Made by a program: the position numbers and the translations under genes
Source: an uncultured Bacilli bacterium
GTDB lineage: Bacteria > Bacillota_I > Bacilli_A > RF39 > UBA660
Direction of reading: 5' to 3'
Assembly: GCA_947588765.1 (NCBI GenBank)
Contig: CANPZG010000010.1
Span: 1 to 38,172, forward strand
Length of the DNA: 38,172 nt
In this document: in pieces, positions 910-37,993 of the stretch
Layout: every line of letters starts with the position of its first letter
Numbering within the stretch: the first letter of the stretch is position 1
Notes under the pieces: model-generated
Seen by the model: the letters and a program-made list of their open reading frames with translations, nothing else
Told to the model about the DNA's origin: nothing
Database searches by the model: none

Positions 910-1877
910 TTGGTACCTCCAAAGCTAGTTCTTTAAGTTTTGAAGTATCTATATCTAAATAAGTCATAGTTGTTTTAATATCTTGATGACCTAATATTGT
1001 TGAAATAGAATATAAAGATATTTTCTTTTAAAAGTAATGTACTAAAACTATGTCTTAAACTATGGAATCCATGTTTTCTTCCATTAATATCTACACCTGC
1101 TTTAATTAAATAGTTTTTAACTTTATGATTATATGTTTTTAATTCAATATGTTGTCTATATGGCTTTTTTAAAGTTATAAAAATATAATCTAAATCACAT
1201 TTAGGTCTTACATTTTTTAAATAATCAAGTAATGGATATCTAACTTTATCTATAAGAGGTAAAGTTAATAAATTATCTGTTTTATATTGAATTATTGCTA
1301 TTGTGTTTTCATTAAAATCAATATTACTTAATTTTAAATTAATGATATCACTTATTCTCAATCCTAAATAACATATTAAACTTAATATTAAATAATCTTC
1401 TTTACCTTGTTTAGTTCTTATATCTATTGCATTTAACATTTTAGTTATTTCTTCCTTTGTATAATAAGTTCTTATATTGGTATTTCTATGCCATGCTATT
1501 TTAGGCAAAATCATATCTCCAGATATCTTAACTAAATTATTTTGATATGCCCAATTTAAAAAGGTTTTAATATCAAACTTATTTCTATCTTGCCTAGTTA
1601 AACACCAAGACAAATTAGTACAAATATTAAAATAATTATAAATGTCTTCCTTATCAAAATTTTTAAGATTTTTTTCTTTAGAAATAAGATATTGTTCTAA
1701 TAAATATATAAATCTTAATTTTTCACATATTGTATTTTCTTTATTATTTAATAATTTTAAATAACAATAATAAGATTTAACTATTTTGTTATCAATTTTA
1801 TTTTCTAATAATGGTCCTCCTTCCTTTAAAAATTGATTTACTCTTTTAAAAGAGCCTTTAATTTGTATTGTATCCAT
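899..1877 (-). pseudogene. Tyrosine recombinase, frameshifted near its C-terminus
   Basis: An ORF of 300 codons starts at ATG 1877 and shows a SAM-like N-terminal core-binding region, then GLRISD (catalytic Arg), YKT and HSLRHSFS (His/Arg). After KEN the frame runs into an unrelated tail and stops at 975. In another frame the expected ending is intact: SISTILGHQDIKTTMTYL, carrying the last catalytic His and the Tyr, and it continues to a stop at 899-901. The break lies around 1013-1022 and equals a net +1, or a loss of two bases from a short AT run. As assembled, the product lacks its nucleophile and would be inactive. A sequencing error or programmed frameshift cannot be excluded. Length if repaired is about 325 residues, normal for XerC/D-like enzymes. 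Confidence 0.85.
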
Positions 1878-1926
1878 CTTTTATCACACTCCTTATTTTT
1901 ATGAATACAATACAATTTTAACAAAA

Positions 1927-2036
1927 AGTTATGTTAAGAAAAATTTGAAGATATCCCTATTTATATGGGGTTCTTTTTAATTTCTTAACATAACTAAATC
2001 CTTAACATAAAAAAGATTATGTTAAATTTAACATAA
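1927..2036. repeat. Cluster of inverted repeats upstream of the recombinase pair
   Basis: AGTTATGTTAAGAAA (1927-1941) is matched exactly by its reverse complement TTTCTTAACATAACT (1981-1995). A further CTTAACATAA lies at 2001-2010, and a 20-bp palindrome at 2017-2036 is built from the same TTATGTTAA core. The core therefore occurs five times in both orientations within 110 bp, just upstream of the recombinase genes and before surface-protein copy 1. Position and arrangement fit recombinase arm/core binding sites or an element end. The rest of the 330-bp gap between 1878 and 2207 holds only the copy 1 promoter. Confidence 0.6.
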
Positions 2037-2132: not shown

Positions 2133-2159
2133 TTGACAGAATATATATATATATATAAT
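2133..2159 (+). promoter_or_regulatory. Copy 1 promoter with (AT)8 spacer tract
   Basis: TTGACA at 2133-2138 and TATAAT at 2154-2159 are both perfect consensus but only 15 bp apart. The spacer is filled by an (AT)8 run (2141-2156) that also enters the -10 box. One added AT unit would give the optimal 17 bp. An AAAGGAGAG ribosome site precedes ATG 2208. Confidence 0.75.
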
Positions 2160-2207: not shown

Positions 2208-4088
2208 ATGGATGATAAAAATAAAATGAAAGGAATAGTATATTTATCAATAGGAATAGTAACATTAATAGCTTTAATAGCCGGAGCAACATATGCTTAC
2301 TTTAAAGCAGTAACAGGGAATGAAGCAAATGCAAATATAAATGTTGGAGCAGGTACAACAGATAATCTAACTTTTACTAAAGGTAGTGATTTAACTTTAA
2401 ATGTATCAGCGGATAATTTAAGTAAGGGTAATGGAGTAGGTGTATCAGAACAAACTAATGTAACAGCAACATTAGTAGCCAATAATACAACAAATGAAGC
2501 AACAAAAACGTATAATGTTTATTTAGAAATCTTAGAAAATGATTTAGAATACTCATCATATGAAACAGATGAAGACCCATTAGTATTCAAAACAGAATAT
2601 GCTAAAACCTTAGGAAATAATAGAGATTATAATGGGTTAACCAAAGGATATGAACCAAGACCAGAGTTATATTTGACTATAGAAGGACCTACAAACTTTA
2701 ATAAAAAAATAGAAGGATTAAAAAAAGCAAAATTACAAACTGAAGATGATAGTTATGATATAACAGAATTAAGAGAAGGAATATATGCCTTAGCGGAAGA
2801 TTTCCAAATAAATGTATCAAAAGGAGATGCAAATCATCAAAAGACAGATACATGGAACATAAAAGTAACATTTAAAAACTTGGATAGTGACCAACAATTA
2901 AATACCAACAAAAAATTTAGTGCCAGAATAATAATTCAAGCAGAAAAATTAGCCAATGATTTATCAGATGTATGTAAGAGTGGAGATAATTTAGCAAATT
3001 GTATTCAACAATTACATAAGAATTCAGTATATGGAGCAAGTAATTTAATATATCATGATGGATTAGATGATACATCAAGAGGAGAAACATCAGGAGCATT
3101 AGAAGCCGGAGACAATTCATATAGATATACAGGAAGTTATGAAAAAGTAAATAACTACATATGCCTAGGAACTGATTGTAGTAATAAAGATAATCTATTT
3201 AGAATAATAGGAACCTTTGGAGATGATGGAATAAAAGTAGTAAAAGCTGACTATGCAAATAAAGAATTGCTAGGTACTGGAAATACAAAACCAGCTGGAG
3301 ATACTGTAAATCCAGCAACAAATGGTTCATATACAGGACTTGTAAATAAAGTAGGTTCTGGAAATAACGAAGACAAAGATGCAGTATCCCATCGTTATAA
3401 AGGAAATGAAACAGAAGTAGATAGATACTATTGGCAAGAAAACGGAAGTGAATCAACACTGGCTGAATGGAAAACAGCATTATTAAACACGATTCATTTA
3501 AATACAAATTATTATAATAATATAGAAGAATCATATCGAAGTTTAATAAAAAAACATACATGGATATATGGAAATGACAATGCAACATGGAACAATATAG
3601 TCATAGGAACAAATGCCAAAACAGTATATGACTATGAAATTGGTAAAAATTCAAACCCAAATCAAAAAACTGATAATGAAAAAATAGGATTATTATATGT
3701 AAGTGATTACTTATATGGAGCAACGCCAAAAAATTGGAATAAACAATCATATACAGGAACATGGGGTTATAATATGGACTCAGGTAAAGCTGATAAGGAA
3801 GGTAATCCAGCGGGAAGTTTTCCAGAAACACAAGTAAATAATGATTACCGCTCAGTTACAGATAGTAACTGGTTATATATGGGCTTATGGGAATGGTTAA
3901 TAACCATAAATAATGACCGTGTCACTCCTGTCGGTGCGTTCACTGTGCTTGCAGCCGGTCATGTCAACGGCCACTGCGTCGGCACGATTGCGTATGCGGT
4001 CCGTCCGTCCTTTTATCTCGAATCTAACACGACAAAATATAAAAGTGGAACTGGTACAGCTAGTGACCCATACATTCTTGATGTATAA
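2208..4088 (+). CDS. Surface protein family, copy 1, with lectin-like variable C-terminus
   Basis: 626 residues. Residues about 8-34 form a hydrophobic signal segment ending in AGATYAYFKA, resembling the GxTxAxF pattern of SipW-dependent (TasA/camelysin-type) signals. A beta-rich N-terminal domain follows (about 40-250), then a Cys pair (256, 265), the YHDG motif (about 282-285) and the shared core: a second Cys pair in ICLGTDC, NLFRIIGTF, KIGLLYVSDYLYGA, and NWLYMGLWEWLI. Residues about 570-598 are the GC-rich variable stretch, closed by VRPSFYLESN and SGTGTASDPYIL. There is no LPxTG or C-terminal membrane segment, so anchoring or secretion is through the N-terminus. The role is unknown; surface display and ligand binding are inference. 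The first 294 bp from the promoter inward are identical to copy 2. Confidence 0.85.
   Translation: MDDKNKMKGIVYLSIGIVTLIALIAGATYAYFKAVTGNEANANINVGAGTTDNLTFTKGSDLTLNVSADNLSKGNGVGVSEQTNVTATLVANNTTNEATKTYNVYLEILENDLEYSSYETDEDPLVFKTEYAKTLGNNRDYNGLTKGYEPRPELYLTIEGPTNFNKKIEGLKKAKLQTEDDSYDITELREGIYALAEDFQINVSKGDANHQKTDTWNIKVTFKNLDSDQQLNTNKKFSARIIIQAEKLANDLSDVCKSGDNLANCIQQLHKNSVYGASNLIYHDGLDDTSRGETSGALEAGDNSYRYTGSYEKVNNYICLGTDCSNKDNLFRIIGTFGDDGIKVVKADYANKELLGTGNTKPAGDTVNPATNGSYTGLVNKVGSGNNEDKDAVSHRYKGNETEVDRYYWQENGSESTLAEWKTALLNTIHLNTNYYNNIEESYRSLIKKHTWIYGNDNATWNNIVIGTNAKTVYDYEIGKNSNPNQKTDNEKIGLLYVSDYLYGATPKNWNKQSYTGTWGYNMDSGKADKEGNPAGSFPETQVNNDYRSVTDSNWLYMGLWEWLITINNDRVTPVGAFTVLAAGHVNGHCVGTIAYAVRPSFYLESNTTKYKSGTGTASDPYILDV
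3915..4028 (+). other. Candidate DGR-type variable region of copy 1
   Basis: This 114-bp stretch has 66 G/C (58%) inside a strongly AT-rich gene and uses codons rare elsewhere here (GTC, GGC, GCG, CTC, CGT). Aligned with copies 2 and 4, invariant codons (ttc, ggt, gtc, gcg, gtc) alternate with codons that differ in their first two bases but keep a T or C at the third. The 3' anchor from about 4000 on is shared almost base for base with copies 2 and 4. No template repeat is visible in the window. Confidence 0.55.
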
Positions 4089-7899: not shown

Positions 7900-7926
7900 T
7901 TGACAGAATATATATATATATATAAT
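7900..7926 (+). promoter_or_regulatory. Copy 2 promoter with (AT)8 spacer tract
   Basis: Identical to the copy 1 promoter: TTGACA, 15-bp spacer with (AT)8 at 7908-7923, then TATAAT. The identity with copy 1 starts at the base before the -35 and runs on into the gene. Confidence 0.75.
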
Positions 7927-7974
7927 GATATCAGGAAAAATAAGGGTATTTGATAATAAAAGGAGAGTTGTATC

Positions 7975-9891
7975 ATGGATGATAAAAATAAAATGAAAGG
8001 AATAGTATATTTATCAATAGGAATAGTAACATTAATAGCTTTAATAGCCGGAGCAACATATGCTTACTTTAAAGCAGTAACAGGGAATGAAGCAAATGCA
8101 AATATAAATGTTGGAGCAGGTACAACAGATAATCTAACTTTTACTAAAGGTAGTGATTTAACTTTAAATGTATCAGCGGATAATTTAAGTAAAGGTGATG
8201 GACTAGGAGTATCACAAAATACAAATGTAACAGCAACATTAGTAGCAAATAATACAACAAATGAAGCAACAAAAACATATAATGTATATCTAGAAATAAT
8301 AGAAAATGATTTAGAATATTCATCATTTACTGACCCAGATAATACATTACCAAATTTAGTATTTAAAAATGAATATGAAAAAACCTTAGGAAATAATAGA
8401 GATTATAATGGCTTAACCAAAGGATATGATCCAAGACCAGAGTTACTTTTAACAATAGAAGGGCCTACAAATTTTGATAAAGAAATAGAAGGATTAAAAA
8501 AGGCAACATTACAAAATGAAGATGATAGTTATGATATAACAGAATTAAGGGAAGGTATATATGCTTTAGCAGAAGATTTCCAAATAAATGTATCAAAAGG
8601 AGATGTAGATCATCAAAAGACAGATACATGGAACATAAAAGTAACATTTAAGAACTTGAATAGTGACCAACAATTAAATACCAATAAAAAATTTAGTGCA
8701 AGAATAATAATTCAAGCAGAAAAATTAGCAAATGATATATCAGATGTATGTAAAAGTGGAGATAACATAGCAAATTGTATTCAACAATTACATGACAAAT
8801 CAGTATATGGAGCAAGTAATTTAATCTTCCATGATGGAAAAGATGATCCAACAAGAGGAGAAACATTAGGAGCATTAGAAGCGGGAGATAATTCATATAG
8901 ATATACAGGAAGTTATGAAAAAGTAAATAACTACATATGTTTAGGAACAGATTGTAGTAGTAATAAAGATAACCTATTTAGAATAGTAGGAACTTTTGGA
9001 GAAGATGGAATAAAAGTAGTGAAAGCCGATTATGCCAATAAAGAATTATTAGGGGCTGGAACAACAAAACCAAGTGGAGATTTATCTCAAGCAGACCCAG
9101 AAACAAATGGTGCTTATGCAAATGTTACATATAGCGCTGCAGTAACCGAAGAAGAAAAAGATGCGTTTACCCATAGATATAAAGGAAATCTAACAGAAGT
9201 AGATAGATATAAATGGCAGGAAAATGGAGATGATAAAACAGCAGCCAATTGGACTACTTCACTTCTAAACAGAATTCATTTAAATAACAAATACATAAGT
9301 ACATTTAATGTAACATATCAAAATTTAATTAAAGAACACATATGGATATGGGGAAATAAAAATGCTACTTGGGATAATATCGCAGGGGGAGCAAATGCTA
9401 AAATAGTATATGATAATGAATTAGGAGATTTAATAGATAAGGAAACACTAAAAACAACAGAACCAGAAAAAATAGGATTATTATATGTAAGTGATTATTT
9501 ATATGGAGCCTCACTAAATAATTGGAGTAAGCAACCAAAAATAGAAACATGGGATTATACAAGTGATGGAACAAAAAAGGATAAATTTAACAATCCAGTA
9601 GGAAGTTTTCCAGAACATGAAATAGATAATGATTATCGTTCAGCAACAGATAGTAATTGGTTATACATGGGCTTATGGGAATGGTTAATAACACAAAGAT
9701 ATGATTATACCAATGGAACCATGTCCCCTGTTCGAACATTCGGTGTGTATGCCACTGGTTATGTCGGCACTGCTCTCGCTGTCGGCACAAGTGCGAGTGT
9801 GGTCCGTCCGTCCTTTTATCTCGAATCTAACATGACAAAATATAAAGGGGGAACTGGTACAGTTAGTGACCCATATATTCTTGATGTATAA
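7975..9891 (+). CDS. Surface protein family, copy 2, with lectin-like variable C-terminus
   Basis: 638 residues with the same order as copy 1: SipW-like hydrophobic signal (about 8-34), beta-rich domain, VCKSGDN...NC Cys pair, then the core with RYTGSYEKVNNYICLG, NLFRIVGTF, KIGLLYVSDYLYGA and NWLYMGLWEWLIT, a GC-rich variable segment, VRPSFYLESN and DPYILDV. The 5' end is identical to copy 1 for 294 bp (7899-8192 against 2132-2425), after which divergence is scattered, pointing to recent duplication or gene conversion. The middle loops (residues about 360-400 and 470-520) differ most from copy 1 outside the variable tail. AAAGGAGAG precedes ATG 7975. It lies between smc and the convergent prsA gene. 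Confidence 0.85.
   Translation: MDDKNKMKGIVYLSIGIVTLIALIAGATYAYFKAVTGNEANANINVGAGTTDNLTFTKGSDLTLNVSADNLSKGDGLGVSQNTNVTATLVANNTTNEATKTYNVYLEIIENDLEYSSFTDPDNTLPNLVFKNEYEKTLGNNRDYNGLTKGYDPRPELLLTIEGPTNFDKEIEGLKKATLQNEDDSYDITELREGIYALAEDFQINVSKGDVDHQKTDTWNIKVTFKNLNSDQQLNTNKKFSARIIIQAEKLANDISDVCKSGDNIANCIQQLHDKSVYGASNLIFHDGKDDPTRGETLGALEAGDNSYRYTGSYEKVNNYICLGTDCSSNKDNLFRIVGTFGEDGIKVVKADYANKELLGAGTTKPSGDLSQADPETNGAYANVTYSAAVTEEEKDAFTHRYKGNLTEVDRYKWQENGDDKTAANWTTSLLNRIHLNNKYISTFNVTYQNLIKEHIWIWGNKNATWDNIAGGANAKIVYDNELGDLIDKETLKTTEPEKIGLLYVSDYLYGASLNNWSKQPKIETWDYTSDGTKKDKFNNPVGSFPEHEIDNDYRSATDSNWLYMGLWEWLITQRYDYTNGTMSPVRTFGVYATGYVGTALAVGTSASVVRPSFYLESNMTKYKGGTGTVSDPYILDV
9718..9831 (+). other. Candidate DGR-type variable region of copy 2
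   Basis: GC-rich stretch equivalent to 3915-4028. Relative to copies 1 and 4 it has one extra codon (ggc) in the middle. Invariant codons are shared with the other two, variable codons are different (for example tat, ctc, act where copy 1 has cat, cac, aac), and the 3' anchor through ctc gaa tct aac is the same. Confidence 0.55.
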
Positions 9892-17649: not shown

Positions 17650-17678
17650 TTGATATATATATATATATATAGTAAAAT
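17650..17678 (+). promoter_or_regulatory. Copy 3 promoter with (AT)9 tract, 17-bp spacer
   Basis: TTGATA (17650-17655), 17 bp, TAAAAT (17673-17678). The AT tract has nine units (17653-17670), one more than in the other five family promoters, and gives the only optimal spacer. AAACACC just upstream and GGTGTTT downstream form a flanking inverted repeat. Confidence 0.7.
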
Positions 17679-17702: not shown

Positions 17703-19316
17703 ATGAATAAAAAGAAAACAATAATACTTTTAGTAATAGGAATACTTGTAGTAACAACAATGTCAATAGGTGTAACATATTCATACATGAAACCAAAAGC
17801 TACAAAAGATAGTAATGAAACAGAAATAGGAATAAATAACTGTGCTAGGATAACATTAAAAGATAATAATAGCACAATTAGTTTAACAAATATGTATCCT
17901 ATGGAAGAAGAAATGGGATTACAAACAACTCCATATGAATTTACTATAAGTAGTACATGTGAAGAATATACGGGATTTAATTTATATTTAACAACATTAA
18001 ATGATAATGAAATAAAAGATAAAGATATAAGATATGCAGTAACAGATGTAGATGATAATGTTTTAATAACAGATTTATTAACAAATACAGAAGAAGTAAA
18101 TGATCTAACTGAAGAAGAAATAAGGGAATTAGAACAAGGATTAGATAATAGAAGAAATAAAACATACAAAGTATACAATGGAGTAATACCATTAAATAAA
18201 GATAAGGTATATAAGTTACATTTATGGCTAGATGAAAATACAACTAATGAAACAATGAATGAAAGTTTTAAAATAAAAGTATCCATAAAAGGGTATAAAT
18301 ATGAAGGAACACTAGCAGAATACTTAATCAAAACTAAAGATAGAACATTAATATATCATGATGGAAAACCTGATTATAAAGATATGGAAAATTATGAATT
18401 AGAAGCTGGCGATTTATCATATCGATTTACTGGTGGAAATGATGTAGTTAATAATTATGTATGTTTAGATGGTACTACTGAAAAAGATACTTGTGCCAGT
18501 GAAAATGATTTATATCGAATAATAGGATTATTTCAAAATGAAGAAGGTAATTATGAAATAAAACTAATTAAAGCTGATGCAACTGGTGAAGAACAGACGG
18601 GAACGGATGGAGCCTATATGACAGGAGGTTTTCAACCCAATAGTGAAAATACTTATAAAGGTAATAATTATCAAAATCTAAAATCTTATTATTGGAATTC
18701 GAGTAAAGGAAATACTTCCACTGAAATTTTACATACTAATAATAATATATGGTCAACTAGTAATTTAAATTTAATTAATTTAAATCAAAATTTTTATGAA
18801 TATCTTTTAAAGAAAGAGCCTAATTTAAAAATTCAAAAACATAGTTGGCAAATTGGCCCTGTTACTCATTTGCTAAATAATAATTCCCCAGAAAGTTATG
18901 CTTATGAATTAGGTAGTTCTAGGACTAAAGTTGGTGAAGAAAAATGTTTAAATGAAGGTAATCTAACTAAAATTTGTCAGTTGGAAGATGTAGAATATGA
19001 AAATTATATTGGACTTATGTATGTTTCCGATTATGCTTACGCTGCTAAACCTCAATTATGGGGCGATAATTTGCATAGAGAGAATAAAGATATGGAAAAT
19101 ATTGAAAATTGGATTTATATAGGTTTATATGAATGGACTATATCCTCAGCAACAGATTTAAATACCTCATATATTTTAGGGTATACAAATGGAATTGAAC
19201 GTTATAATGTTTGGTCGGGAATGGTTGGTATTCGACCTTGTTTCTATATTTCATCTGATTCTAAAATAAAAGAAGGAAAAGGTACTAAAGAAAACCCCTA
19301 TCAACTTACAATTTAA
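17703..19316 (+). CDS. Surface protein family, copy 3
   Basis: 537 residues. The membrane signal IILLVIGILVVTTMSIGVTYSYMK (about 7-30) is followed by an N-terminal beta-rich domain (about 40-200) unlike that of copies 1, 2 and 4 but shared with copy 5, then the family core: LIYHDGKPDY, LEAGDLSYRF, NNYVCLDG, NDLYRIIGLF, NYIGLMYVSDYAYAA, NWIYIGLYEWTI, IRPCFYI and GTKENPYQLTI. Codon style changes within the core: before about 18420 codons mostly end in A, after it T-ended codons like those of the housekeeping genes dominate. No GC-rich variable segment. GAGGTG lies 8 nt before ATG. Function unknown. Confidence 0.82.
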   Translation: MNKKKTIILLVIGILVVTTMSIGVTYSYMKPKATKDSNETEIGINNCARITLKDNNSTISLTNMYPMEEEMGLQTTPYEFTISSTCEEYTGFNLYLTTLNDNEIKDKDIRYAVTDVDDNVLITDLLTNTEEVNDLTEEEIRELEQGLDNRRNKTYKVYNGVIPLNKDKVYKLHLWLDENTTNETMNESFKIKVSIKGYKYEGTLAEYLIKTKDRTLIYHDGKPDYKDMENYELEAGDLSYRFTGGNDVVNNYVCLDGTTEKDTCASENDLYRIIGLFQNEEGNYEIKLIKADATGEEQTGTDGAYMTGGFQPNSENTYKGNNYQNLKSYYWNSSKGNTSTEILHTNNNIWSTSNLNLINLNQNFYEYLLKKEPNLKIQKHSWQIGPVTHLLNNNSPESYAYELGSSRTKVGEEKCLNEGNLTKICQLEDVEYENYIGLMYVSDYAYAAKPQLWGDNLHRENKDMENIENWIYIGLYEWTISSATDLNTSYILGYTNGIERYNVWSGMVGIRPCFYISSDSKIKEGKGTKENPYQLTI

Positions 19317-26587: not shown

Positions 26588-26614
26588 TTGATATATATAT
26601 ATATATAGTATAAT
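26588..26614 (+). promoter_or_regulatory. Copy 4 promoter with (AT)8 spacer tract
   Basis: TTGATA (26588-26593), 15 bp containing most of (AT)8 (26591-26606), TATAAT (26609-26614). Confidence 0.7.
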
Positions 26615-26639
26615 GGGCTAAAAAGAGGTGTTTGATAAA

Positions 26640-28547
26640 GTGAAAGATAGAAAAAAAGAAATAACACTACTAATAATAGGAATATTAACTTTAGTATCTT
26701 TACTAGTAGGAGCAACTTACGCTTTCTTTAAAGCCCAAACTGGACCAGCTGCAAATTTTGATGTTAATGCAACAACTGGTACAACAGATAATCTAACATT
26801 TACTACTGTTGGTAATATCTTAATAAATGCTAGTGCCAATAATTTTGCAAAAGGTAGTGAAGATTTAAATGGTACGATAACAGCTACAGCTAATTTAATC
26901 GCCAATAATAGTACTAATACAACAGACCCCTACTATTACAATGTCTATTTAGAAGTAATAGAAAATGAATTAGAATATTCTTCATTCAAAGACCCAGATG
27001 GAAAGCTACCAAATTTAGAGTTTAAGACAGAATATGATAAAACCTTAGGAAATAATAGAGATTATAATGGACTAACAAAAGGTTATGACCCAATACCGGA
27101 GCTATATTTGACAATATCTGGACCAAAAGATTATGAATATAATATAGACTTACCAGTAGCAACATTAAAAGAAAATGATGATAGTTATGATATAACAGAA
27201 TTAAGAGAAGGAATATATCCATTGGTATTAAATAAAGCAATCCAAGTAGAAGGAAAAGATAACGGAACAAAAAAAGAAGACTGGCAAGTAAAAGTAACAT
27301 TAAAGAATTTAGATAGTAATCAACAATTGAATACCGGAAAGACATTTAATGCGAAAGTAATAATTCAAGCCGAAAAAATACCAATGAATTTAATGGATGT
27401 ATGTAAAAGTGGAGACAAATTATCGGATTGTATAAAGTTATTACATGATAAATCAACATATGGAGCAAGTAATCTAATCTATCATGATGGAGAAAAAGAT
27501 TATGAAGGAGAAGAAAACTATGAATTAGAAGCAGAAGACAATTCATACCGATATACAGGCTCATATGAAAAAGTAAATAATTATGTTTGCTTTGGTGAAA
27601 AATGCTCAACAGATCCAAGTGATCCAGATTATAATAATTTATATCGAATAATAGGAACATTTCAAAATGAAGAAGGAGAATATGAAACAAAGTTAATAAA
27701 AGCCGATTATGCTAATAAAGAATTATTAGGCGAAGGAACAAAAACACCTAGTGATTTATCTCAAGCAAATACAGAAACTGATGGTTCTTATGCAATTAAT
27801 ACATATAGTGCAAAATCAACTAGTAATGAATTAAAAGATACATTTGCCCATAGATACAAAGGAAATTTAACAGAAGTAGATAGATATAGATGGCAAGAAA
27901 ATGGGGATACAAGTACAGCAGCAAAATGGCCAACATCGTTATTAAATAAAATCCATTTAAATACAAACTATTATAATTCAATAGACCCAACATATCAAAA
28001 ATTAATAAAAAGCCATACGTGGATATTGGAAAATGATAATGCAACATGGGATAATATAGCCTTAGGAACAAATACCAAATCAGTATATGACTATGAAATT
28101 GGTGCAAATTCAAAAGCAAATCAAAAAACAACAGATCCAGAAAATATAGGATTATTGTATGTAAGTGATTACTTATATGGAGCATCACCAAAAAATTGGA
28201 ATAAAAAACCATTTAATAATAAATTAAATTATACAAGTGATGGAACAAAAACTGATAAATTTAATAATCCAGCAGGAAGTTGGCCTATAGGACAAGAAAA
28301 TAATGATTATCGTTCAGCAACGGATAGTAATTGGTTATATATGGGATTATGGGAATGGTTAATGACTCAAAGATACAATTCTTTTGTCTTTGCGTTCATT
28401 GTTCGTGCCCATGGTTTTGTCAACCACGACTCCGTCGGTACCGGCGCGTATCCGGTCCGTCCTTCCTTTTATCTCGAATCTAACGTGAAATATAAAAGTG
28501 GAACTGGTACTTTTGAAGACCCATATACAATTGATATATCTAATTAA
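26640..28547 (+). CDS. Surface protein family, copy 4, with lectin-like variable C-terminus
   Basis: 635 residues from GTG 26640, the position matching the ATG of copies 3 and 5 relative to the GAGGTG ribosome site; the in-frame GTG at 26628 is part of that site. The signal (LLIIGILTLVSLLVGATYAFFKA) and N-terminal domain resemble copies 1 and 2 but are diverged; the core has DVCKSGDKLSDC, RYTGSYEKVNNYVCFGEKC, NLYRIIGTF, NIGLLYVSDYLYGA and NWLYMGLWEWLMT. The variable GC-rich segment and the VRPSFYLESN anchor are of the copy 1/2 type, and the protein ends SGTGTFEDPYTIDISN. The promoter region, by contrast, is of the copy 3/5/6 type, so this gene is a mosaic. Confidence 0.83.
   Translation: MKDRKKEITLLIIGILTLVSLLVGATYAFFKAQTGPAANFDVNATTGTTDNLTFTTVGNILINASANNFAKGSEDLNGTITATANLIANNSTNTTDPYYYNVYLEVIENELEYSSFKDPDGKLPNLEFKTEYDKTLGNNRDYNGLTKGYDPIPELYLTISGPKDYEYNIDLPVATLKENDDSYDITELREGIYPLVLNKAIQVEGKDNGTKKEDWQVKVTLKNLDSNQQLNTGKTFNAKVIIQAEKIPMNLMDVCKSGDKLSDCIKLLHDKSTYGASNLIYHDGEKDYEGEENYELEAEDNSYRYTGSYEKVNNYVCFGEKCSTDPSDPDYNNLYRIIGTFQNEEGEYETKLIKADYANKELLGEGTKTPSDLSQANTETDGSYAINTYSAKSTSNELKDTFAHRYKGNLTEVDRYRWQENGDTSTAAKWPTSLLNKIHLNTNYYNSIDPTYQKLIKSHTWILENDNATWDNIALGTNTKSVYDYEIGANSKANQKTTDPENIGLLYVSDYLYGASPKNWNKKPFNNKLNYTSDGTKTDKFNNPAGSWPIGQENNDYRSATDSNWLYMGLWEWLMTQRYNSFVFAFIVRAHGFVNHDSVGTGAYPVRPSFYLESNVKYKSGTGTFEDPYTIDISN
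28377..28484 (+). other. Candidate DGR-type variable region of copy 4
   Basis: GC-rich tail equivalent to those of copies 1 and 2. Against copy 1 it aligns without gaps over 28 codons: gtc, ggt, ttc, gcg and gtc columns are unchanged, whereas columns such as cat/ttt, ctt/cgt, act/att and cac/gac change at base 1 and/or 2 only. Confidence 0.55.
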
Positions 28548-31539: not shown

Positions 31540-31566
31540 TTGATATATATATATATATAGTAAAAT
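31540..31566 (+). promoter_or_regulatory. Copy 5 promoter with (AT)8 spacer tract
   Basis: TTGATA (31540-31545), 15 bp, TAAAAT (31561-31566); (AT)8 at 31543-31558. Otherwise nearly identical to the copy 3 promoter, differing by one AT unit. Confidence 0.7.
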
Positions 31567-31590: not shown

Positions 31591-33204
31591 ATGAATAAAA
31601 AGAAAACAATAATACTTTTAGTAATAGGAATACTTATAGTAACAAAAATGTCAATAGGTGTAACATATTCATACATGAAACCAAAAGTTACAAAAGATAG
31701 TAATGAAACCGAAATAGGAATAAATAATTGTGCTAAAATAACATTAAAAGATAATAATAGTACTCTAAATTTAACAAATATGTATCCCATGGAAGAAGAA
31801 ATGGGCTTACAAACAGAAGCTTATGAATTTACCATAAGTAGTACATGTGAAGACTATACCGGATTTAATTTATATTTGTTAACTTATAGTGATAATGGGA
31901 TAGCAGATAATTTGATAAGATATGCAATAACAGGTAAAAATAATACGATATTAGAAACAGATTTATTAACAAATAAGAAAGAGGAAACAAGTTTAACTGA
32001 AAAAGAACAAGAAGAAATAAATCAAGGAATAAATAAAGGATATAGTAAGATATATAAAATATATAGTAATAATATCCCTTTAAAAGGAGAAAGTGAATAT
32101 AAATTACATATATGGCTAGATGAAAATGATGATAATACTACAATGGGTAAAAATATCAAACTTGGAGTAATAGTAAAAGGCTATAGTAGAGAAGAAACAA
32201 TGGCAGAATATCTAATTGCTCATAAAGATAATAACTTAATCTATCATGATGGAAAACCAGATTATGAAGGAGAAGAAAATTATAATTTAGAAGCCGGTGA
32301 TTTATCATATCGCTATAGTGGAGCAAGTGAAGAGGTAAATAATTTTGTATGCTTAGATGGGATAAATATAGAAAATAAATGTGCAAGCGATACAGATTTG
32401 TATCGTATAATTGGATTATTTAAAAATGATGAAAATAATTATGAAATGAAACTAATTAAATATGATTATGCTACTAAAACAGAATTAGGTGATAGTTCAA
32501 TTCCAAATAGTGCATATCAGGGTGAATATGTAAATAAAATAGCCGATGATTACTATACTTATGCTTATTATAAAGGAACTAATTTCCAAAATGTTGCATT
32601 ATATTCATGGAATAATAAAGATAATTATAATTCTACAAATGATTGGAGCCAAAGTAATTTAAATACAGAAAATTTAAATAAATTTTACTATAACTATATT
32701 ACTAAAAAAGCACCTAACATAAAAATAACTTATCATGAATGGAGTATAGGTGCAGCAGGTGATATGAAAAATATTCATGAAGCTAATGCTTTAATTGCAT
32801 ATAGTTATGACGTTGGAGAAAATAGTGAAAAAGTATTCTATCAAAATTATATTGGTCTGATTTACATAAGTGATTATTATTATTCAGCAAATAATAAATA
32901 TTGGAGTTACGTAGGTAGCAATACCAAATATTCGACACCTCCAAAATATGATGGACCATTTGATGATTATCGAGATGCAAAAGGTGAAAACTGGATATAT
33001 ATGGGTTTAATAGATAACACAATTTCTCGAAATAATGCATATAATTCTTCTAATTATCGATGGAGTATTTGTTTTTTTGGACATTTTTGTGGAAATCTTG
33101 TATATGATGGTAGAGGTGTTCGCCCGTCTTTTTATCTTTCTGCAAATACCGAATTATCTACGGGTGATGGTTCATATAATAACCCATTTCGGCTTTCATT
33201 ATAA
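31591..33204 (+). CDS. Surface protein family, copy 5
   Basis: 537 residues, closest to copy 3: the first ~40 residues are nearly identical (MNKKKTIILLVIGIL), and the N-terminal domain is of the same type. The core follows: LIYHDGKPDYEGEENYNLEAG, RYSGASEEVNNFVCLDG, DLYRIIGLF, NYIGLIYISDYYYSA, NWIYMGLIDNTIS, then a tail rich in T-ended codons and VRPSFYLSANTELSTGDGSYNNPF. The anchor here (cgc ccg tct ttt tat ctt) uses codons unlike the rest of the gene and resembles the GC-rich anchor of copies 1, 2 and 4. GAGGTG precedes the ATG by 8 nt. Function unknown. Confidence 0.82.
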   Translation: MNKKKTIILLVIGILIVTKMSIGVTYSYMKPKVTKDSNETEIGINNCAKITLKDNNSTLNLTNMYPMEEEMGLQTEAYEFTISSTCEDYTGFNLYLLTYSDNGIADNLIRYAITGKNNTILETDLLTNKKEETSLTEKEQEEINQGINKGYSKIYKIYSNNIPLKGESEYKLHIWLDENDDNTTMGKNIKLGVIVKGYSREETMAEYLIAHKDNNLIYHDGKPDYEGEENYNLEAGDLSYRYSGASEEVNNFVCLDGINIENKCASDTDLYRIIGLFKNDENNYEMKLIKYDYATKTELGDSSIPNSAYQGEYVNKIADDYYTYAYYKGTNFQNVALYSWNNKDNYNSTNDWSQSNLNTENLNKFYYNYITKKAPNIKITYHEWSIGAAGDMKNIHEANALIAYSYDVGENSEKVFYQNYIGLIYISDYYYSANNKYWSYVGSNTKYSTPPKYDGPFDDYRDAKGENWIYMGLIDNTISRNNAYNSSNYRWSICFFGHFCGNLVYDGRGVRPSFYLSANTELSTGDGSYNNPFRLSL

Positions 33205-36569: not shown

Positions 36570-36596
36570 TTGATATATATATATATATAGTAAAAT
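36570..36596 (+). promoter_or_regulatory. Copy 6 family promoter with (AT)8, separated from its gene
   Basis: TTGATA, 15 bp, TAAAAT, with (AT)8 at 36573-36588 and the CACCACC block upstream as in copy 5. After AAAAATGAGG (36601-36610) the similarity stops abruptly and about 65 bp of different sequence with its own TATAAT (about 36655) leads to the gene. Confidence 0.6.
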
Positions 36597-36676: not shown

Positions 36677-37993
36677 ATGAAACGAAACAAAAAAATAATA
36701 TTAATTCTTATAGTTGGAATAATATTGAGTATTACAATCATTACTCAATATGATAAAAGTAGTAATTTACAAACTGATACTAAAAACTATTTAAGTATAA
36801 TGGTAAAAAGTGATGAAGGAACATATAAAGTAATGAATACAATTCCAACTGAAGGATATGTTTTAAATAAAACAAAAAGTAAATGTGAAAATGGAAGTAC
36901 ATTATCTTGGAAAGAAGGAAAAATTTCTATAACTGGCAATAAACAAGATAAATGCCATATATATTTAGAAAAAGAAGCATGTAAAGAAAATGAAACAATA
37001 GAAAAATGTTTAAAAAGAAAAGATGTAAATTCTACGTTATTATTTCATAATGGAACAATAGAAATAGATGGAAAAGTAATGGATGCAGGAGATTATTCAT
37101 ACCGGTATAGTGGGGCAAGTGAAAAAGTAAATAATTATGTCTGTTTTGGAGGAGAATGCTCTAACGACCCAACAAATGAAAATTATGCCAATTTATATAG
37201 AATAATAGGATTATTTCCAACCGAAGAAACAAAGAATTCAGAACAAAAAACATATCAAATGAAAATAATCAAAGCTGATTATGCAACAGAAACAGAACTA
37301 GGTGGAACAGGAGTAGGAGCATATGCTGGAACTTTTCTTTCTAAAGAGTTGTATGAACAAAATGAGACAATAAGTATGTATAAAGGAAATCAAATATATT
37401 TAAATAAGGTAACGTTGTATCATTGGAATAACAAATCTGAAACAAATAGTGATAATGATTGGAAAAATAGCAATCTAAATATAGAAAATTTAAATGAATA
37501 TTATTTGAATTATATAAAAAATAAAGAAGAAGAGAAATGGGAAAAAATGATGGAAAACCACACATGGACAACAGCAGGAAATTTAGATGCAAGTATAAGA
37601 ACTCAAAACGCCAAAAATGCATATAACAATGAAATAAAAGAACCAAATAAAGGAACAGCATTATCAAGTGCAGCAACAGAAGTAACAGCCAGAGTAGGAT
37701 TAATGTACATAAGTGATTATATGTACGCAGCAACAAAGGAAAGTTGGACAACAGTAGGTTCAGTAAAAGATAATAATTGGTTATATATGGGATTATCAGA
37801 GTGGTTAATTACCCGTGGTTCTAATTATAATAATCGTTCTTATTATATATGGGGTAATGGCTCATTGGGTGTTGGACATAGTACGGTATATTCTTTCGAT
37901 TTAGCTACTCGTCCTGTTATGTATCTAAACTCTAATGTAAAAATATCATCAGGATCTGGCACAAGTGAAGATCCATATATACTTTCCGTATAA
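36677..37993 (+). CDS. Surface protein family, copy 6, with different N-terminus
   Basis: 438 residues. The signal/anchor (IILILIVGIILSITII, about 6-21) is not of the SipW-like type of the other copies, and the N-terminal domain (about 28-103, two Cys) is short and unrelated to them. From residue about 120 it is the family core: LLFHNGTIEIDG, DYSYRYSGASEKVNNYVCFGGEC, NLYRIIGLF, VGLMYISDYMYAA, NWLYMGLSEWLIT, a tail of T-ended codons, RPVMYLNSN and SGSGTSEDPYILSV. GAAGGGA precedes the ATG. This looks like a shared C-terminal module attached to another N-terminal module behind a displaced family promoter. Confidence 0.8.
   Translation: MKRNKKIILILIVGIILSITIITQYDKSSNLQTDTKNYLSIMVKSDEGTYKVMNTIPTEGYVLNKTKSKCENGSTLSWKEGKISITGNKQDKCHIYLEKEACKENETIEKCLKRKDVNSTLLFHNGTIEIDGKVMDAGDYSYRYSGASEKVNNYVCFGGECSNDPTNENYANLYRIIGLFPTEETKNSEQKTYQMKIIKADYATETELGGTGVGAYAGTFLSKELYEQNETISMYKGNQIYLNKVTLYHWNNKSETNSDNDWKNSNLNIENLNEYYLNYIKNKEEEKWEKMMENHTWTTAGNLDASIRTQNAKNAYNNEIKEPNKGTALSSAATEVTARVGLMYISDYMYAATKESWTTVGSVKDNNWLYMGLSEWLITRGSNYNNRSYYIWGNGSLGVGHSTVYSFDLATRPVMYLNSNVKISSGSGTSEDPYILSV

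Follow-up and report, generated by a model that had tools for sequence, protein, structure and literature searches.

Three GC-rich tracts in the window (the whole stretch of 38,172 nucleotides analyzed here, part of contig C10) are almost certainly variable repeats (VRs) of a bacterial diversity-generating retroelement (DGR), one that would serve at least nine targets in trans. The genome, from an uncultured Bacilli bacterium, comprises 1,270,290 bases in 58 contigs and is ~92% complete. Four defining features of a DGR are present: a DGR-type reverse transcriptase (RT), a template repeat (TR) near it, TR/VR differences concentrated at adenines and an accessory gene. Sequence comparison supports the assignment of the tracts in copies 1, 2, and 4 to a DGR whose cassette sits on another contig, C26. 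In the proposed mechanism this one cassette would make the TR RNA, with a conserved folded RNA just after the TR. The RT, together with Avd, would copy the TR RNA and misincorporate opposite adenines. In retrohoming, the mutated cDNA would then take the place of the homologous VR of a target gene, with at least nine such genes available and the common 3' anchor serving as the homing region.

The target paralogues of 626, 638, and 639 aa show 61-78% identity to copy 1 (Table 1). The G+C content of the window is 26.9%. Copy 1 moves from 29.8% ahead of its tract to 57.9% at 3915-4028, copy 2 from 29.4 to 53.5% and copy 4 from 29.1 to 49.1%. This bears out the earlier note, which had described GC-rich tracts in these AT-rich genes (58% in copy 1). 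The alternation of invariant with hypervariable codons that it reported also has a simple basis, in that the invariant codons are TR codons without A. Five columns had been singled out as products of AAT or AAC template codons (CAT/TAT/TTT, CTT/TAT/CGT, ACT/GGT/ATT, CAC/CTC/GAC, and TAT/AGT/TAT), and all five are AAT or AAC in the actual TR on C26. Other details need adjustment. The variable tract is real, but TR/VR homology covers just 78-81 bp (with ~7 bp added upstream where the copy is cleanest) and not ~110 bp. It lies near the C-terminus but does not form the last codons of the gene, since ~26 codons come after the VR. A 3' anchor running through ctc gaa tct aac had been proposed as the site of an IMH. 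Its first part is common to TR and VRs, but the TCCTTTTATCTCGAATCTAAC block, which lies 3' of the TR/VR homology and is common to the targets, is missing from the TR. The GC-rich 3' end common to TR and VR is the candidate IMH.

Table 1. Positions of the target genes, VRs, anchors, paralogues, putative promoter tracts and TR (window coordinates unless a contig is named).
Feature	Position	Strand	Basis
(AT)n tract, putative -35/-10 spacer of copy 1	2141..2157	+	
Target gene copy 1, 626 aa	2208..4088	+	ORF; paralogue alignment
VR of copy 1, 78 bp core	3930..4007	+	blastn match to TR begins at 3926
3' anchor of copy 1: GTCCGTCCG (in TR too, IMH candidate), then TCCTTTTATCTCGAATCTAAC	3999..4028	+	
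(AT)n tract, putative promoter of copy 2	7908..7924	+	
Target gene copy 2, 638 aa	7975..9891	+	ORF; paralogue alignment
VR of copy 2, 81 bp, with an extra codon in the AAC-rich stretch	9730..9810	+	
3' anchor of copy 2	9802..9831	+	
Paralogue (copy 3 of the earlier note), AT-rich C-terminus, without TR-like VR	17703..19316	+	
(AT)n tract, putative promoter of copy 4	26591..26607	+	
Target gene copy 4, 639 aa from GTG	26628..28547	+	ORF; paralogue alignment
VR of copy 4	28386..28463	+	
3' anchor of copy 4	28455..28484	+	
Paralogue without TR-like VR	31591..33204	+	
Paralogue without TR-like VR	36677..37993	+	
TR	C26 ~14423-14339	minus	85 bp matched to adjacent VR

The RT and the template that the earlier note proposed to look for across the genome were both found, on C26 and outside the window. 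An RVT_1 search of the genome identified three RTs. Those on C2 and C22 were rejected as the DGR RT, being of the group II intron type and retron-like, respectively. The RT on C26 (RVT_1, 58 bits) carries GNMTSQ and YMDD motifs, and TSQ and YMDD occur also in BPP-1, ANMV-1, FP_Lagaffe, and VP58.5. Its closest solved structure is 8ub7 chain A (E 2e-16 with the single sequence, 1.7e-26 with a profile), an RT solved together with Avd as chain B. The RT tree does not separate its deep branches or place the enzyme among DGR clades 1-6. Going upstream from the RT gene, a 125-aa Avd-like gene, a 124-aa gene and the TR are followed by the terminal part of one more paralogue of the window family. The order of the cassette is target/VR, TR, MutS-I-like gene, Avd, RT, and an 84-aa ORF. 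The Avd-like gene matches NF033474 (E 1.3e-6) and phrog_3206, the PHROG Avd family (E 8e-10), and bAvd is found in 8 of 10 relatives. The 124-aa gene has MutS domain I (MutS_I) in 10 of 12 relatives and fits the MSL accessory genes listed for DGRs (PMC10053308). The scores of the C26 Avd and MutS-like proteins themselves fall under the curated Pfam/NCBIfam cut-offs.

Directly 3' of the RT there is a conserved ORF of 75-100 aa (L004:12146-12400, minus strand, and relatives), matched in 16 of 21 cassettes including this one. A family search with it (84 aa on C26) returned no known family, and it is possibly a new DGR accessory gene. A separate observation is that in two relatives the DGR RT gene is interrupted at the same place by ~1.8 kb of other sequence (G019:C1:108116-111059 and G012:C3:63753-66693).

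The central evidence comes from comparing the TR, GTCAATGCGTTCAATGTGAATGCAACCGGTAATGTCAACAACAACTACGTCGGCACGAACACGAATGTGGTCCGCCCG, with its VRs. Against the adjacent VR on C26, over 85 bp, mismatches fall at 13 of 23 A positions and at 0 of 62 elsewhere. The anchor GGTCCGYCCNTCCTTTTATCTCGAA, allowing at most 3 mismatches, occurs at nine sites in the genome: one each on C1, C2, C6, C7, C26, and C55 and three on C10, the last being those of the window. The TR core compared contains 23 A and 55 other positions per VR. Pooled over the nine VRs, differences are found at 128 of 207 A positions vs. 33 of 495 non-A positions (p=2e-53). The VRs on C26, C6, C7, and C55 are the cleanest: 13-16 of their 23 A positions differ from the TR, and all 55 other positions agree with it. 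The C1 VR has 12 A and 2 non-A changes and the C2 VR 14 and 8. In the window, copy 1 differs at 14/23 A and 3/55 non-A positions (Fisher p 3.5e-7), copy 2, with its one extra codon removed, at 16/23 and 11/55 (Fisher p 4.8e-5), and copy 4 at 16/23 and 9/55 (Fisher p 9.9e-6). In two more paralogues, C37 and C2:9620, the C-terminus is AT-rich and scarcely resembles the TR.

Could the GC-rich tracts instead be foreign insertions, or fragments of mobile elements carried along with the genes? The jump in G+C at the tracts is sharp and a tyrosine recombinase gene lies upstream of copy 1. However, each tract is in frame and stands in place of the homologous AT-rich stretch of the VR-less paralogues. 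It also equals the TR at non-A positions, and the jump arises because the TR itself is GC-rich. An origin by insertion is hardly credible.

The earlier note had also remarked that some third-base differences do not fit a single template. They are real: the three window copies have 23 non-A changes, of which 15 are C>T or G>A, an excess in the direction expected of drift at this genome's composition. The window copies and the C2 copy have CGT in place of the CGC of the TR. This common CGT may lie outside the part replaced by homing, or it may come from an older TR. Judged by their sequences, the window copies have probably either not been rewritten recently or been written from an older TR, which would account for the third-base misfits. 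Rewriting of the copies on C26, C6, C7, and C55 looks more recent. With 11 and 9 non-A differences, copies 2 and 4 are incompletely explained by one present-day template. A second TR as their source was rejected, as blastn of the genome with the TR and its flanks matched the VRs and a single TR. With 58 contigs and ~92% completeness, however, the assembly may lack a second TR.

What if the window copies are targets no more? In this scenario they would be retired VRs of this DGR, or of an older TR, that are now drifting. Their non-A changes number 3, 11, and 9, vs. 0-2 in five other VRs, and the bias toward C>T and G>A is the direction of an AT-rich genome. The common CGT and the additional codon of copy 2 could be read the same way, and the C37 and C2:9620 paralogues, at 44 and 40% G+C, resemble later stages of such decay. 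Against this, the reading frames, G+C content and 3' anchors of the window copies are all intact, and copy 1 has just 3 non-A changes. Moreover, a sister genome (G025) also contains a graded series, from 1 to 11 or more non-A changes. Retirement deserves to be taken seriously, but the odds are somewhat against it. Whole-codon length differences within the AAC-repeat part also occur among VRs of one TR (G018 loci L183-L199; window 9730-9810). Length differences like that of copy 2 occur in both G025 and G018, and perhaps they reflect slippage on AAC repeats during template copying.

The same arrangement recurs in relatives, which are MAGs, mostly of uncultured Bacilli; a gut origin is presumed for them and for this bacterium. 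A match to the RT at 1e-20 is found in 60 of 196 related genomes, not necessarily all of them DGR RTs. The usual cassette order is target, TR, MutS-like gene, Avd, RT, and 75-100-aa ORF. TR/VR pairs were found automatically in 13 cassettes, this one included, and have mismatches at 235 of 403 A and 14 of 783 non-A positions. A sister species (G025), whose RT is 92% identical, carries a VR or VR-like end in eleven genes, and G018 has 17 anchors, ~15 of them recognizably TR-derived. The most direct comparison is between G011 and G027, whose loci are near-identical around the RT and whose TRs are identical. All 24 of 24 VR differences between them fall at TR adenines, as anticipated by the earlier note, which had expected variation confined to template A. 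A 260-bp block upstream of the VR also differs and has probably arisen by recombination.

This block raises the question of whether a DGR is needed at all. Gene conversion and diversifying selection among the paralogues might have made the pattern in a large family (65 matches) that recombines, and copies 1 and 2 are identical across their first 200 bp, promoter included. However, neither process limits changes to the A positions of an intergenic repeat beside an RT gene, and four VRs have 0/55 non-A changes. An origin without a DGR is very improbable. The identical part of copies 1 and 2 (2150-2350 and 7917-8120) gives way to a remainder diverged to 66-96%, which can be read as recent duplication or gene conversion.

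The ~140 nt 3' of the TR are a conserved structured RNA with covariation (L004:14217-14334, minus strand). In the alignment 96% of cells are paired and 14 of 23 pairs are changed on both sides; 0 of 500 shuffles attain either value. The spacer resembles Rfam RT-14 (RF02921) at a sub-threshold level, scoring 32 bits vs. a gathering cut-off of 48.1, which 0 relatives attain. In BPP-1 the structured spacer adjoining the TR recruits RT-Avd and primes cDNA synthesis (PMC12875486). By analogy, the spacer RNA here is likely to play the same role. On inspection of the flanks by eye, a hairpin 3' of the VR did not show up consistently.

The three target proteins have an N-terminal membrane helix (4-35 in the model of copy 1); copy 1 further comprises a beta-sandwich and a C-terminal domain that bears the VR. 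A Pfam search with the target protein gave no significant match. Structure prediction was poor at full length (pLDDT 61) and better for the C-terminal domain alone (pLDDT 71, pTM 0.78). The predicted domain strongly matches an IgA peptidase structure (9qa6, E 1.9e-7), a match that carries no information on protease activity. There are also many weak C-type lectin matches, including Legionella Lcl (Lcl_C), at E>1, and matches to DUF6273/DUF1566 phage proteins (DUF6273, E 4e-3). A fold distantly like that of C-type lectins is likely, though weakly supported, for the modeled domain. The VR ends ~26 residues from the C-terminus. Adenines in the TR are confined to AAT/AAC, ACC/ACG, TAC, and GCA codons. 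Rewriting therefore cannot create a stop, and a single VR has a coding capacity of ~1e13 proteins. The target proteins are membrane-anchored and probably surface-exposed, and the system likely serves to change binding or display at the cell surface.

Another feature of the family is the (TA)n tract in its putative promoter spacers, present also at 17653-17671, 31543-31559, and 36573-36589. Among paralogues, and also in G025, tract lengths run from 13 to 19 in increments of 2. Most tracts of at least 14 nt in the genome precede either target-family genes or genes for other putative surface proteins. Of the TTGATA-type sites listed for three genomes, the majority measure 17 nt and a few measure 15 or 19. 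The placement is like that in H. influenzae hif, in which a dinucleotide tract between -35 and -10 switches expression by its length. Phase variation by these tracts is put forward here as a hypothesis from their position and lengths. Perhaps there are two layers, one trans-acting DGR rewriting the tips of 9-15 surface proteins and (TA)n slippage switching copies on and off. This is an unlikely combination; if true, each cell would display a different subset of a hypermutated repertoire. Upstream of copy 1 (window 975-1995), the tyrosine recombinase gene occupies 975-1877 on the minus strand, and the gap ahead of copy 1 holds a 15-bp perfect inverted repeat, AGTTATGTTAAGAAA.

Several known systems are similar. 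Treponema denticola ATCC 35405 (TvpA family) has one TR and seven dispersed targets (PMC4891356). As here, one RT and one TR serve dispersed VR-bearing surface-protein genes whose VRs differ mainly at A. However, T. denticola is a spirochaete with fewer targets, which are C-type-lectin (FGE-sulfatase-like) proteins and many of them predicted lipoproteins, whereas the targets here number 9 (~15 in one relative) and differ in their N-terminal domain. The Bordetella phage BPP-1 DGR (mtd, avd, TR, brt) shares an RT with TSQ and YMDD, Avd and A-specific VR changes. It is phage-borne, with its target beside the cassette and its TR between avd and brt, whereas the C26 TR precedes the MutS-like gene, Avd and RT and phage genes were not noticed nearby. 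In Thiohalocapsa PB-PSB1 the VRs of DGR 4 and 5 match the DGR 2 TR at all non-A sites (PMC10907252), so that remote targets are accounted for by trans action, as proposed here. There, a 7.95 Mb genome holds nine loci that fall into four classes and have defence-like targets; here a single cassette is found in 1.27 Mb. There are also reports of a single TR accompanied by at least a dozen VR copies (PMC6642488). The present DGR therefore belongs to a known kind. It is less usual in having so many remote targets for a genome this small, and in the structured RNA after the TR, the conserved ORF and the promoter (TA)n tracts.

A global survey found DGRs enriched in Firmicutes and the human gut, with remote targets undetectable by its approach (PMC8144416); compared with the gut Firmicutes DGRs listed there, the repertoire here is dispersed and outside that survey's reach. 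DGR surveys normally search only beside the RT and so miss scattered targets. In the present case, inspection of the sequence was enough to reveal the targets, although the window contains no RT. One TR with 9-15 VRs amounts to parallel natural replicates of the same template. The choice among remote targets, the frequency with which each is rewritten and the drift rate of VRs left unrewritten thereby become testable. It also means that bacteria with genomes of ~1.2 Mb maintain large hypermutable families of probable surface proteins.
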